This document shows positions 19,626 through 49,338 of a DNA stretch of 64,000 bases, one piece after another. Made by a program: the position numbers and the translations under genes. The stretch is from Prolixibacteraceae bacterium. GTDB taxonomy: Bacteria; Bacteroidota; Bacteroidia; Bacteroidales; Prolixibacteraceae. The DNA is taken from NCBI GenBank assembly GCA_019459485.1, contig JAIBEZ010000073.1, positions 1-64,000 on the forward strand. The letters run 5' to 3'. Numbering within the stretch: the stretch's first letter is position 1; each line of letters begins with the position of its first letter. Below the pieces are notes generated by a model. That model did not search any database. It worked only from the letters and a program-made list of their open reading frames with translations, and was not told the DNA's origin.

Positions 19626-20549
19626 CTATCGCTTTCTTTGCCCCTTTCTCCTACCTTTAAGTAATTGCTTTTTATTCCTGAAATAATTTTTATCCGAATA
19701 GTTTGGAATCAACCGAAGTAAATCAGCCAGTAATCTGTAATTTCCCTGATGATACTCTTTTGAATCAATTAAATATTGACCTCTTGCAAGCTCAATCCTT
19801 TCAGCTTCCCCTTTCGATTGATAAAACCTAGGTCTTTCCTGAAAATCTGACATCTTAATCGGATGCCGGATCGGATTGCCATTTTCATCTGTTACAAATA
19901 CCAAATGCCCTTTCTGAACCTGCCGAATTTCAATATGAAACAGCTTCAGGGCATCGTTATACATTTGCTTGTTGGCAATAAAATCCATGCGATTGAGCTC
20001 GGAGAACAGGTTTTCAAGGTTCTGTTTCAGGTTCTTGCTATATGCCGTAAATTTCAGATTGATTTTTTCCTTTGGCTCATCATTTTTTAACTTGTAGGTT
20101 TGTTCCAGCTCCTTGATGAACTTCTGTACTTTTTCCTTCTCAAAATTGTCTTTGATCTTTTTGCCGCTTTGCTTGTCAATCCTGGTGGAAACAATGTGGA
20201 AATGTAACCGGTCAATATCGGCATGTCGGTAAACCAGGTAGGGCTGATTTCCATATCCGAGTTGTTTCATCAGATTATCAAGCTCAGTTCGTATTCCCTT
20301 TTCGCCCATCCGGATCATATCATTCATTATTGGATTGAAAGAGATGTGAAGTCCTTTATTCTTAACACGTGTATTTGAATCTTCAATGCGCTTGAATATT
20401 TGATGACGATGTTGAGCGGAGTAAATAAATGGATTCGCCGAAGGTGTATTTCGGCTGTGGTAAAAGGAGGCTTTACCTTCTTTTGCCTTTCGCTCATTGT
20501 AGAAAAAAGCATTAGCAGTGCTTGATGCCTGATGGATGACAATAACCAT
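19626..20549 (-). CDS. MobB-type relaxase/mobilization nuclease
   Basis: The 307-residue protein begins MVIVIHQASSTANAFFYNERK, the usual N-terminus of Bacteroidota MobB relaxases. It carries the metal-binding motif HADIDRLHFHIV (His109, Asp111, His116, His118) typical of HUH-like relaxases. A Tyr nucleophile is probably among the N-terminal tyrosines (FFYNERK or FYHSRN). It would nick oriT and pilot single-stranded DNA during conjugal mobilization. The C-terminal half is basic and ends KGRRKGQRKR. It lies 24 bp downstream of the MobC-like gene. The length is near normal, so it may be intact. Confidence 0.88.
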   Translation of the reverse strand: MVIVIHQASSTANAFFYNERKAKEGKASFYHSRNTPSANPFIYSAQHRHQIFKRIEDSNTRVKNKGLHISFNPIMNDMIRMGEKGIRTELDNLMKQLGYGNQPYLVYRHADIDRLHFHIVSTRIDKQSGKKIKDNFEKEKVQKFIKELEQTYKLKNDEPKEKINLKFTAYSKNLKQNLENLFSELNRMDFIANKQMYNDALKLFHIEIRQVQKGHLVFVTDENGNPIRHPIKMSDFQERPRFYQSKGEAERIELARGQYLIDSKEYHQGNYRLLADLLRLIPNYSDKNYFRNKKQLLKGRRKGQRKR

Positions 20550-20573
20550 TTCTTTGGTTTTTCTGGTTATTCA

Positions 20574-20951
20574 TTATGGAATATGATCCATATATTTTTG
20601 CAAAAGAACAAAACACTTTTTGAGCGTTTCATAAGCGTTATTCAGGGTTCGCTTGTCTTGTGAATCAAGCTGGTATCCTAAATAGGTATTCAGTTTTTTA
20701 GCGATCTGGTTCAGGTTAACACCAATCTTGTTGAGTTCAAAATCCATTTGGCCCATTAATTCCGAAAATTCCTTGCTGGCTTCAATTTTGCGGATCTCCC
20801 GTTTCCGTAATAGTTTTGCCCTGCCAAAATCAATCAAGGTTTTATAGCCTTCCTTCCGGCAGCGCTCAGACAACAGTTCCTTTTCCCGGTTGGTCAGACG
20901 AACCCGGATTCCTTCACCTAGCTTTTTTTCTTTCGGGGTTGGAGGCCTCAT
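20574..20951 (-). CDS. MobC-like relaxosome accessory protein
   Basis: The 125-residue basic protein has a ribbon-helix-helix-like N-terminus (GEGIRVRLTNREKELLSERCRKEGYKTLIDFGRAKLL). A conserved LNKIGVNLNQIAKKLN segment follows, diagnostic of MobC/MobA-type accessory proteins. It would bind oriT DNA and recruit the relaxase encoded just downstream. An oriT-like inverted repeat lies about 90 bp upstream. The codons look like those of the adjacent relaxase. Confidence 0.88.
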   Translation of the reverse strand: MRPPTPKEKKLGEGIRVRLTNREKELLSERCRKEGYKTLIDFGRAKLLRKREIRKIEASKEFSELMGQMDFELNKIGVNLNQIAKKLNTYLGYQLDSQDKRTLNNAYETLKKCFVLLQKYMDHIP

Positions 20952-21037
20952 TTTTTTTCCTTCCGGATTACCTGGATTTTAACTTTGAACTTGCTTTTTG
21001 AAAGAGGGGAATCATTATCATCGACCTTTAAGGGAAT

Positions 21038-21107
21038 GAGGGGAATGCTCCGTAGGACAGTTTTGTAAATGTTTTTGTGGAACAAAAACGCATCTTGCAT
21101 TCCCCTC
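21038..21107. other. Candidate oriT: nested inverted repeats upstream of mobC
   Basis: GAGGGGAATGC (21038-21048) pairs perfectly with GCATTCCCCTC (21097-21107). Inside the 48-nt loop is a second hairpin, GTTTTTGT/ACAAAAAC (21071-21078 with 21082-21089). A related GAGGGGAAT copy lies at about 21004. Inverted repeats upstream of mob genes are the usual place for oriT. No nic site is assigned. Confidence 0.5.
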
Positions 21108-21178
21108 TTTTATTAGATTCCTCTCCCATCTTTCGACTTCCTTTTCAACCAAAAAGGCAGGATTTTGCCTCCCTATTT

Positions 21179-21535
21179 TCAGAACTTGATCTGGGTTTCA
21201 ACTTCCCTGATCCGTTCATCCAAAGTCGTTTTGATTTCTTCCATCAAAGCGGATACTACGGGAGTGTTGGAGGTTTTAAACTCTTTTCCTGATGCGTCCC
21301 GAAGGAATACTGTTGCACCCAAGCCGTCAGCTCCCAGTGAGAAAGGTTGCAGGTTTCGGCGAATTTCGGTCAGCTTGCGCCACTTCTCAATGAGCATGCT
21401 CAAATCTTCTACCTTCTGAATCCGATGCTCCAAAGAAGGAATCTCTGGAGCTTTTTCTTCGTTCTTTACTACTGCCAATGAGGTTTTGGCTTGTTCTTCA
21501 CCTTCCGCATTGAGTTTTTTAGGCGTATTATTCAT
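21179..21535 (-). CDS. Small protein associated with mobilization genes, unknown function
   Basis: The 118-residue protein is not one I can name. A polar N-terminus is followed by a coiled-coil-like helix (LEHRIQKVEDLSMLIEKWRKLTEIRRNL), a short beta-rich part (LGATVFLRDASGKEFKTSNTP) and a C-terminal helix (VVSALMEEIKTTLDERIREVETQIKF). I recall similar proteins next to mob genes in Bacteroidota mobile elements, but without a function. It shares the strand with mobC and mobB and is separated from mobC by the oriT-like region. Confidence 0.6.
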   Translation of the reverse strand: MNNTPKKLNAEGEEQAKTSLAVVKNEEKAPEIPSLEHRIQKVEDLSMLIEKWRKLTEIRRNLQPFSLGADGLGATVFLRDASGKEFKTSNTPVVSALMEEIKTTLDERIREVETQIKF

Positions 21536-21575
21536 AGCTATTTGCCGTTGCCCTACGGTCTTATTTTGGCATCAG

Positions 21576-21731
21576 GCACCCCGGTTAAAATTTCGGCGGA
21601 CCGGACATTGAGCTGTCACGGATAAGGTCAACGGGGTGCATGTCATTCCGGTGGAACCGGAATGAACGCATCCGAAGGATTCCGATTTATCGGAACCCCT
21701 TTACCGTTCTGTGAAGCGTGAATATCTTTGC
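21576..21731. repeat. Structured element copy A (hairpin block ending near an att-like TATCTTTGC)
   Basis: An outer stem GCACCCCG(g)TT/AACGGGGTGC (21576-21586, 21630-21639) precedes the shared core. The core runs CATGTCA, hairpin 1 (21644-21652 with 21656-21664), AACGCATCCGAAGGA (21665-21679), hairpin 2 TTCCGA/TCGGAA (21680-21685 with 21690-21695), and a fixed tail from 21696 (CCCCTTTACCGTTC) to TATCTTTGC at 21723-21731. Copy B at 49138-49250 has the same fixed blocks with different hairpin sequences. It lies at the right end of the mob region. TAnnTTTGC also resembles the target of CTnDOT-type integrases. Confidence 0.7.
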
Positions 21732-21756
21732 ATGCAATTTAAAATGGAGTGCAAGT

Positions 21757-22704
21757 TCATTGGGTTACATTTTTAAATATAAGTGAAGCCGCGCCGAGAC
21801 TTCCGGCCATGTTGCCCAAAACAGCGGCAACCACATCTGTATTGGCTGCACAATCGGGCATAGCGTATTGAAACGTGTATTTTTTAATCAAATCGATGTA
21901 GAATTGGCCGGCTTCGGAAATCCCACCGCCAATTACTACCTTTTGCGGAGCAAACGAATTGACAAAACCAGCAATAGCGTGCCCCAGATAGTCGGTGTGA
22001 TCTTCCATACATTTCACCGCTGCATCCTCGCCTTCCTTAAACTTTTGTACAAAGTAGAATCCATCGAGTTCGTTTACATTTTTACCGCTGGCTTCAGCAT
22101 ACTGAGTCAAAAGTGCCACGGTTGAGGCATAAGCTTCCAAACAGCCACGTCCGCCACAATTGCAGGCAATCCCTTTGTGGTCGATCGTCACATGTCCCAT
22201 TTCCGTTCCGCGGTTTTTGTAACCACCGTAAAGTTTCCCGTCGGCCACAATGGCTCCTCCAATTCCTGTTCCAACCGTCAGGAAAATCACATCGGTGCAA
22301 TCTTTGGCCGCCCCGTAAACGGCTTCGCCAAGCCCCATCACGTTTGCATCGTTGTCGAGCAACACCGGCAGATTAAATTCCGAAGAAAACATTTCCGACA
22401 GGTGTACCTCAACCCAACCGTTCAGGTTATCGGCGCCGCCAACTACAATTCCGTCGCAGCAAAGCCCCGGCGAACCAATTCCAATTCCGGCTACCTGAAG
22501 ATTCTTTTCTTTTGCTTGCTTCAGCGAAAGTTGAATGGCTTTACGAATGGTTGCCAGAATATCATCGCGCGATGCCTCCTTCCCAATGGATAATTTACTG
22601 TTGTATAAGACTTCTCCTGATTCGGCGACCAAGGCGAATTTGATGAATGTTCCACCCAGGTCGATGCCAATAGCATTTCTATTACCAATTTTATCTTGTG
22701 TCAT
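21757..22704 (-). CDS. ROK-family sugar kinase
   Basis: The 315-residue cytoplasmic kinase has the N-terminal ATP loop AIGIDLGGTFIKFALV, catalytic Asp119 in NDANVMGLGEAVYG, and FLTVGTGIGGAIV. The ROK zinc motif is GHVTIDHKGIACNCGGRGCLEAYAS (His171, Cys181, Cys183, Cys188). It phosphorylates glucose, GlcNAc, glucosamine or a related sugar. It is the last gene of PUL1, 68 bp after an exo-glucosaminidase-like GH2, so the liberated amino sugar is a reasonable substrate (inference). The transposon-like right end lies only 26 bp beyond its stop. Confidence 0.9.
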   Translation of the reverse strand: MTQDKIGNRNAIGIDLGGTFIKFALVAESGEVLYNSKLSIGKEASRDDILATIRKAIQLSLKQAKEKNLQVAGIGIGSPGLCCDGIVVGGADNLNGWVEVHLSEMFSSEFNLPVLLDNDANVMGLGEAVYGAAKDCTDVIFLTVGTGIGGAIVADGKLYGGYKNRGTEMGHVTIDHKGIACNCGGRGCLEAYASTVALLTQYAEASGKNVNELDGFYFVQKFKEGEDAAVKCMEDHTDYLGHAIAGFVNSFAPQKVVIGGGISEAGQFYIDLIKKYTFQYAMPDCAANTDVVAAVLGNMAGSLGAASLIFKNVTQ

Positions 22705-48787: not shown

Positions 48788-48940
48788 TTAAACTTCCAAT
48801 TTATATTGTAATTGGAGCATATCCATGGAAATCTTTGAATCTAAAATCATCGCATATATTTGGGAAATATTTAATGACGTATGTCCCAACATTTTTGAAA
48901 CGGTTTCTGGCGGAACTCCGTTTGTTAGGGTAACTGTCCA
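48788..48940 (-). pseudogene. Tyrosine integrase C-terminal fragment
   Basis: The minus strand encodes WTVTLTNGVPPETVSKMLGH followed by TSLNISQIYAMILDSKISMD to a stop at 48788. This is the box II/III end of a Bacteroidota tyrosine integrase, with the catalytic His in MLGHTS and Tyr in QIYAM. A stop codon lies directly before it and nothing homologous continues upstream, so the gene is cut at its 5' side. A 23-bp stretch (48875-48897) is identical to the pseudogene at 39328-39350. Confidence 0.8.
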
Positions 48941-49137: not shown

Positions 49138-49250
49138 CATGTCAGTTTCATGCCCGAAATAGGCAATCCATGAAACTGAACGCATCCGAAGGACGTCCCG
49201 GGTTTGCAGGGACGCCCCTTTACCGTTCCGTGAAGCGTAAATAACTTTGC
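49138..49250. repeat. Structured element copy B
   Basis: The fixed blocks of copy A recur: CATGTCA (49138-49144), AACGCATCCGAAGGA (49179-49193), and the tail from 49215 to TAACTTTGC (49242-49250). Hairpin 1 is CAGTTTCATG/CATGAAACTG (49143-49152 with 49169-49178). Hairpin 2 is CGTCCC/GGGACG (49194-49199 with 49209-49214). Both hairpin sequences differ entirely from copy A, yet pairing is perfect. It lies close to an integrase fragment. The stretch 48941-49137 between them has no gene I trust. Confidence 0.7.
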
Positions 49251-49338
49251 CGGGAATTTGAGTGGATATGGGCAACTATACTTGATGATAAAGAAAAACG
49301 ACAAAAATTTCTTATATTCACAATTCATTTAATTAAAT

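Follow-up and report, generated by a model that had tools for sequence, protein, structure and literature searches.

A covarying stem-loop in mobile elements of Prolixibacteraceae is probably a Frpo-like single-stranded-DNA promoter

The window analysed here is a stretch of 64,000 nt from a Prolixibacteraceae bacterium (positions 1 to 64,000 of the forward strand of contig JAIBEZ010000073.1, assembly GCA_019459485.1). It carries two loci, 27 kb apart and both beside mobile-element genes, which share fixed sequence blocks in the same order and enclose two hairpins that differ in sequence from one locus to the other. This raises the question of which function retains the junctions and the pairing while the stems themselves are replaced. 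A sequence-only reading of this DNA had proposed a selected nucleic-acid structure, which might serve as an element terminus or att site, as an oriT-like single-strand structure, or as a structured RNA. Having followed the element through related genomes, we consider it likely that integrative conjugative and mobilizable elements of Bacteroidota use it as a Frpo-like single-stranded-DNA promoter.

The two copies, their shared blocks and their stems were all found where that reading had placed them, and the observation is confirmed as real and far from chance; the window contains the core AACGCATCCGAAGGA-N-CCCCTTTACCGTTC twice, and 100 dinucleotide shuffles never produced it. The positions previously given for copy A are correct but cover only part of the element, the 5' arm of which starts at about 21581 and the 3' arm of which reaches to about 21751.

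21581-21751, + strand (the folding strand and predicted transferred strand): copy A, the whole element; ends judged by homology and arm pairing, block order kept in relatives
49138-49264, + strand: copy B, with stem 1, stem 2, and a 3' arm carrying TTTA (49219-49222) and TAACTTTG (49242-49249); outer 5' arm absent

Copy A is an intact member of the family, matched by the covariance model at 21604-21730 with 125.2 bits. Copy B is a 5'-truncated member: its homology to the other copies begins only at 49138, which shows that the 5' arm is missing, and it is thus predicted to be inactive, a dead fragment. Close to it, about 110 bp of the window (48828-48937) are 70-71% identical to DNA in the vicinity of related elements of the genomes G001 and G014. 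A comparison of flanks revealed the full unit, which reads GGCnCGCC-GTTAAA..AAATTT-GGCGTACC-..ATTGAGCT-GTCACGGATnAGGTC-AACGG-GGTGC-ATGTC-(stem 1) in its 5' half and, after stem 1, AACGCATCCGAAGGA-(stem 2)-CCCCTTTACCGTTC-CGTGAAGCGATCAA-TAACTTTG-..GGAAATTTGAGTG in its 3' half. Past the GGAAATTTGAGTG block, the right flank is mostly different in each copy.

The source genome contains four exact copies of the core, six matches with model R1, and seven with the wider model R2. Two of these matches, about 10 kb past the window on the same contig (G000:C107:73873-75183, L068), are divergent copies which precede a gene of the orf118 family (see below) and a gene with a weak DnaJ match. An exact scan of 84,980 species genomes (one per species) yielded 28 further stretches, most of them in Sunxiuqinia, Mariniphaga, Mangrovibacterium, and other Prolixibacteraceae, and one in a bin labelled Pelotomaculum. 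Among the loci examined, 81 further distinct copies were found. Strict filters were applied in searches that covered more than 40 genomes; with these, the element was detected in 61 of 140 genomes from the same family (up to 10 matches each) and in 6 of 393 genomes from the order (the source genome and five from other families), while model R2 matched only the source genome among 395 genomes from the phylum. As detected, the element family is narrow. Plasmid records showed no DNA match to a 451-base element stretch.

The left and right arms of the element pair as ATTGA/TCAAT, GCT/AGC, TCACGG/CCGTGA (or TCCCGG/CCGGGA), and AACGG/CCGTT. Inside the arms, GGTGC/GCATCC with stem 1 and AAGG/CCTT with stem 2 form a three-way junction; some divergent copies (L076, L077) have only a simple hairpin at the apex. 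The helices of copy A are listed below, where A1 denotes an alignment of 33 copies, structure-blind and made with MAFFT, from which L016 and window copy B were left out.

21612-21621, + strand: 5' strand of the outer stem P1, GCT.TCACGG, partner 21709-21717; three helix pairs changed on both sides
21630-21634, + strand: 5' strand of P2, AACGG, partner 21704-21708
21635-21639, + strand: 5' strand of P3, GGTGC, partner 21668-21673; invariant in A1, double changes at four of five pairs in the wider set
21643-21665, + strand: stem 1 hairpin TCATTCCGGT/ACCGGAATGA, covarying
21675-21701, + strand: P4, AAGG/CCTT, capped by the stem 2 hairpin TTCCGA/TCGGAA; stem 2 covarying

Lack of further copies, or further copies with unpaired stems, had been named beforehand as evidence against a selected structure. 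Further copies were found, and their stems pair. When each arm is kept in its own combination, 5.08 of 6 positions of stem 2 are Watson-Crick pairs, compared to 2.06 when arms are swapped (13 distinct arm pairs); for stem 1 the values are 6.38 of 7 and 4.52 (8 distinct arm pairs). Locus L030, which has a different left part, and loci L003 and L004, which duplicate the window copies, were left out of these counts. The pairing had been called perfect, and the stems do differ between copies while still pairing, but in some copies the pairing is imperfect since the commonest stem 2 (AACGAG/CGAGTT) contains two G.A mismatches.

In alignment A1, the 43 named pairs hold in 92.8% of cells. Double changes occur at 14 pairs (7.7 in shuffles), and the covariation score is 0.154, a value reached by none of 500 shuffles (0.068) and well separated from slid controls (at most 0.049); one of the five covariation measures, the number of further pair types, was not above shuffles (31 vs. 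30.2). Sixty more diverse matches, in an alignment which leans towards the model used to make it, gave 90.7% pairing, double changes at 30 pairs (19.4 in shuffles), and a covariation score of 0.273 (0.094 shuffled, at most 0.055 slid). The proposal of a selected nucleic-acid structure is thus supported by stems that are swapped yet pair and by covariation above both kinds of control: the base pairing of the stem-loop is under selection.

Folded as DNA, positions 21590-21756 of copy A adopt the consensus with a z of -3.87, and none of 200 shuffles is as stable; a longer fold of this copy, from GGCACCCC on, departs from the consensus, and so do the minimum-energy folds of several other copies (e.g., L017, L022, L023, L024). 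Folding energies are similar for both strands and do not choose between them. On the hairpin strand, there are 86 GT wobbles to 23 AC mismatches in the model-fitted alignment, and only 13 to 8 in the structure-blind one, which was counted without stem 2 because MAFFT misaligns it.

The 3' arm of the stem-loop carries two boxes in promoter arrangement.

21700-21703, + strand: -33 box TTTA; TTTA, TTGA, or TTGC in 82 of 83 elements
21723-21730, + strand: -7 box TATCTTTG, 19 nt past the -33 box

The housekeeping sigma factor of Bacteroidota is reported to use TAnnTTTG at -7 and TTTG near -33 (PMC7366714). Across the 83 elements, the -33 box is TTTA in 57, TTGA in 18, TTGC in 7, and TTGT in the remaining one, and the spacer measures 18-21 nt in 82. 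The -7 box has TA in 82 elements, TT in all 83, and the final G in 78. All 38 elements with the exact core show TA..TT.G, and most of these were found by a pattern devoid of the -7 box; the other 43, found by models that include this box, have TA in 42 cases and the final G in 38. The suggestion of a Bacteroidota -7 box has therefore held up, with a -33 box at 18-21 nt in 82 of 83 elements. Promoter-like sites are present on the hairpin strand of 73 of 76 elements and on the gene-ward strand of 7, compared to 7.2 in mononucleotide shuffles. From this arrangement, we infer that the sigma-ABfr boxes (TT[T/G][A/C], 18-21 nt, TAnnTTTG) on the 3' arm work as a promoter. In predicted single-strand ensembles (n=79), the pairing probability is 0.34 for the TA of the -7 box, 0.55 for its TTTG, and 0.68 for the spacer; the predicted "open bulge" at -7 is modest.

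As a duplex, this promoter points to the right, a side on which no common gene family was seen. The direction test covered those 73 of the 81 distinct elements that have 300 nt on both sides (eight elements with short flanks were left out), and neither the pattern nor the model contained gene information. An ORF of at least 80 aa starts within 300 nt leftwards in 68 of the 73 elements, and rightwards in 18. Measured from where the model match begins, the gene start is 62-96 nt away in 59 elements, and 0-41 or 120 nt away in the other nine. The 68 left-hand proteins fall into clusters of 23, 15, 15, and 9 plus six singles, so that 62 of them belong to four families. Pfam assigned cluster representatives to ArdcN with a zincin domain, DUF6573, and RadC-like JAB; an N6-methylase (N6_Mtase) comes after ArdC. 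Among the singles there are matches to GP88, YspA-like SLOG, DUF4326, and a response regulator, the last of these encoded behind a copy whose left arm is unusual; matches to DnaJ and phosphoribosyltransferase were weak. SSB and PsiB were absent from the representatives scanned. Promoters of the Frpo type stand before leading genes for antirestriction, SSB, or SOS inhibitors, and the ArdC and N6-methylase genes fit this trait. ArdC of R388 is reported to be required in the recipient, not in the donor (PMC7213743). With the ArdC protein, plasmid records gave 3083 matches, all below 60% identity. At ArdC genes elsewhere in Bacteroidota, an inverted promoter was found at none of eight readable loci; these are the loci, from a total of 19, for which a script recognised the ORF, its crude motif having missed the other 11.

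For copy A, the gene concerned and its leader hairpin are as follows.

21179-21535, - strand: orf118, a gene of a 118-aa family, predicted to be driven by copy A; the family accounts for 15 of the 68 left-hand genes
21545-21558, - strand: hairpin CCGT-AGGGCA-ACGG in the leader RNA of orf118; matched by 73 of 77 leaders

The orf118 protein has no Pfam or NCBIfam match; its family is a candidate for anti-defence or establishment functions. Between the hairpin element and the start codon, unrelated genes share the leader GGCGTGCCAGA-(optional hairpin)-TGCCAAAATAAG-TCCGnAGGGCAnCGG-AAA..ATG. This near-identical leader (window 21536-21590, - strand) is a second structured element: 73 of 77 leaders have a hairpin with the loop A[A/G]GGC[A/T], and the stem covaries (3.6 of 4 pairs in own combination vs. 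2.63 swapped; 25 distinct forms). The hairpin may form a pseudoknot with an upstream TGCC, and our guess is that it controls translation. A match to 6A RNA in one leader (L020 3038-3086; 24.8 bits vs. a cut-off of 41.2) did not recur in L087, L076, or L086 and was taken as chance.

How could a promoter that points away from these genes serve them? If the + strand folds on its own, the 3' arm would be the non-template strand and the 5' arm with its flank the template, and transcription would thus run left into the genes. This predicts that the + strand is the strand transferred during conjugation, which directs attention to the mob genes of the window.

21001-21110, + strand: candidate oriT with an inverted repeat (21001-21012/21099-21110) and a nic-like CATCTTG/CATTCC (the slash marks nic, at 21097/21098); conserved ahead of mobC in related elements
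20574-20951, - strand: mobC (PF05713)
19626-20549, - strand: MobA/MobB-like relaxase (PF03432; match to NF041325 below its cut-off)

Five elements, the window included, share CATCTTG/CATTCC and the inverted repeat (imperfect in one) upstream of mobC. The nic-like motif at 21097/21098 resembles the MOBP nic consensus. The hairpin strand carries CATCTTG/C in the window and at five of nine other relaxases examined, these elements being partly inter-related; for four of the nine the motif is absent from the non-coding strand, and for two a similar motif is on the coding strand. Copy A is about 0.5 kb from the candidate oriT, which is predicted to place it in the leading region, on the transferred strand. 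Relaxase genes enter the recipient last. Among the matches listed in 12 chosen genomes, 31 clusters of elements were distinguished, and for 20 of them a PF03432 relaxase lies no more than 30 kb away. In 18 of these 20 the closest relaxase is on the opposite strand, and in 2 it is on the same strand; the 18 agreeing clusters include the dead copy B, for which the relaxase beside copy A was taken. For one of the exceptions (G001, 4.475 Mb), a second relaxase at a distance of 19 kb agrees and is homologous to the window mob genes.

The window segments 19634-21162 (mobA, mobC, and the candidate oriT) and 21167-21751 (orf118 and copy A) match two places of an element in G001 which are about 16 kb apart and have genes for TraG, TraJ, TraM, DUF4138, and a coupling protein between them. 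Because its two halves are thus separated in G001, window 19634-21751 appears to be a deletion derivative of a conjugative element from which the T4SS segment is missing, so that oriT and the promoter-driven gene are now neighbours. With about 16 kb, including T4SS genes, between candidate oriT and promoters, the promoters of the G001 element would be early rather than first. Type I restriction-modification genes (HsdM N6_Mtase, Methylase_S; L096 7782-11763, G001 497.8-501.8 kb) are cargo between promoters and mob genes.

The mechanism that we propose starts with the + strand of the window, which would enter the recipient as single-stranded DNA. There it would fold into a long stem topped by the three-way junction, using the pairs that covary. 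The 5' arm would make the -33 and -7 boxes of the 3' arm double-stranded, the -7 box only in part. With the 5' arm and then the adjoining unpaired strand as its template, RNA polymerase would transcribe leftwards into the gene on the 5' side; the transcript is predicted to start in the 5' arm, at about AAAATTTAAC, and the mRNA would begin with the common structured leader. The driven gene is mostly ArdC, DUF6573, RadC-like, or of the 118-aa family, and anti-defence functions would thereby be switched on at once upon entry. As soon as the second strand has been synthesised, the promoter, now a duplex, would face away from the genes, and expression would probably be confined, by analogy with F, to a brief burst on entry.

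The tight distance to the start codon and the structured leader shared by unrelated genes would also fit a cis-regulatory structured RNA. In that case the element would belong to the 5' untranslated region of the leftward gene, whose ordinary promoter would lie further right, and it would control transcription or translation. However, no conserved promoter is seen to the right (within 200 nt, a leftward site in 24 of 76 elements and a rightward one in 20), and a leader RNA would offer no obvious explanation for the conserved TAnnTTTG on the opposite strand, at a constant distance from a -33 box. Rfam likewise gave no family for the element (no match in the window, and none up to an E value of 10 in 21500-21800). 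We thus consider a structured RNA unlikely. The folded strand might instead be a single-strand initiation site (ssi) which recruits RNA polymerase or primase to prime the second strand, with gene expression being secondary; Frpo itself, reportedly according to Masai and Arai in 1997, serves both transcription and primer synthesis. However, several copies stand 1-2 kb apart within one element, each before a gene. There are four within 6.1 kb in L087 and three within 3.2 kb in G001, most of these L087 and G001 copies preceding a gene with the fixed leader, which is more than priming needs. Priming as the main role is therefore improbable; as a second role, it is compatible with a single-stranded-DNA promoter.

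The same clustering bears on a recombination or transfer site, be it att, oriT, or a transposon end. The element does sit in mobile elements, and its -7 box resembles a CTnDOT-type core, the TAnnTTTGC end having been likened to the core of CTnDOT-type att sites in the sequence-only reading. An att site of this type would be expected once per element end, whereas the three copies within 3.2 kb lie inside one element, each before a gene; the boxes are at promoter spacing, and TAnnTTTG is explained as a -7 box, so that the terminus or att site was abandoned. As for an oriT-like single-strand structure, the single-strand part was on the right track, but copy A was rejected as oriT itself, since the inverted repeat with its nic-like site beside the relaxosome genes is the separate one at 21001-21110. 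Such a site is, overall, barely credible.

A further reading builds on the single-stranded-DNA promoter, and we regard the chances for and against it as balanced. The element and leader may together be a portable entry-expression cassette that could stand in front of any gene, combining a phylum-specific ssDNA promoter on a three-way DNA junction with a fixed structured leader. The hairpin of this leader, which has the loop A[A/G]GGCA, a covarying stem, and perhaps a pseudoknot to the TGCC that precedes it, would serve as a dedicated translation element. If this is true, the orf118 and DUF6573 families would be anti-defence or establishment proteins. The cassette is also a searchable signature, by which the genes behind it (orf118, DUF6573) become candidates for such functions.

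In the open-licence literature, covered partly by title and abstract, no report of a single-stranded-DNA promoter in Bacteroidota was found, which does not prove absence; one match concerns ArdA proteins. The anti-defence islands described for leading regions (Samuel et al., 2024, PMC11541004) have codirectional antirestriction and orphan-methylase genes with single-strand promoters, an arrangement that the elements studied here would share. The promoters of that study were sought by homology to known Frpo/ssi or by TTGACA/TATAAT, unlike the boxes found here, and "Bacteroid" is absent from its main text.

The element most likely is a Bacteroidota counterpart of the Frpo device known from E. 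coli plasmids. In Frpo of plasmid F, a stem-loop is reported to rebuild the -10 and -35 boxes and to be needed for early expression of leading genes (PMC9849209). In Frpo and Frpo2 of F and in the single-stranded promoter of ColIb-P9, a stem-loop of the transferred strand restores a promoter ahead of leading-region genes; the element resembles them in its stem-loop, which would restore a promoter on the predicted transferred strand, and in its place before candidate leading genes. Plasmid F has two similar copies, and the Bacteroidota elements likewise have more than one per element; on the present reading, both types would work only as single strands. The Bacteroidota element differs from Frpo in having sigma-ABfr instead of sigma-70 boxes, an apex where the stems of a three-way junction or simple hairpin are freely replaced, a common structured mRNA leader, and an occurrence in chromosomal elements. 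Because the promoter boxes are different, sequence homology to Frpo is unlikely. In the literature examined, single-stranded promoters have been proven by experiment on plasmids of enterobacteria, where the boxes are of the sigma-70 type; a version from Bacteroidota that has other boxes and another architecture would suggest that entry expression from ssDNA arose or diverged more than once.
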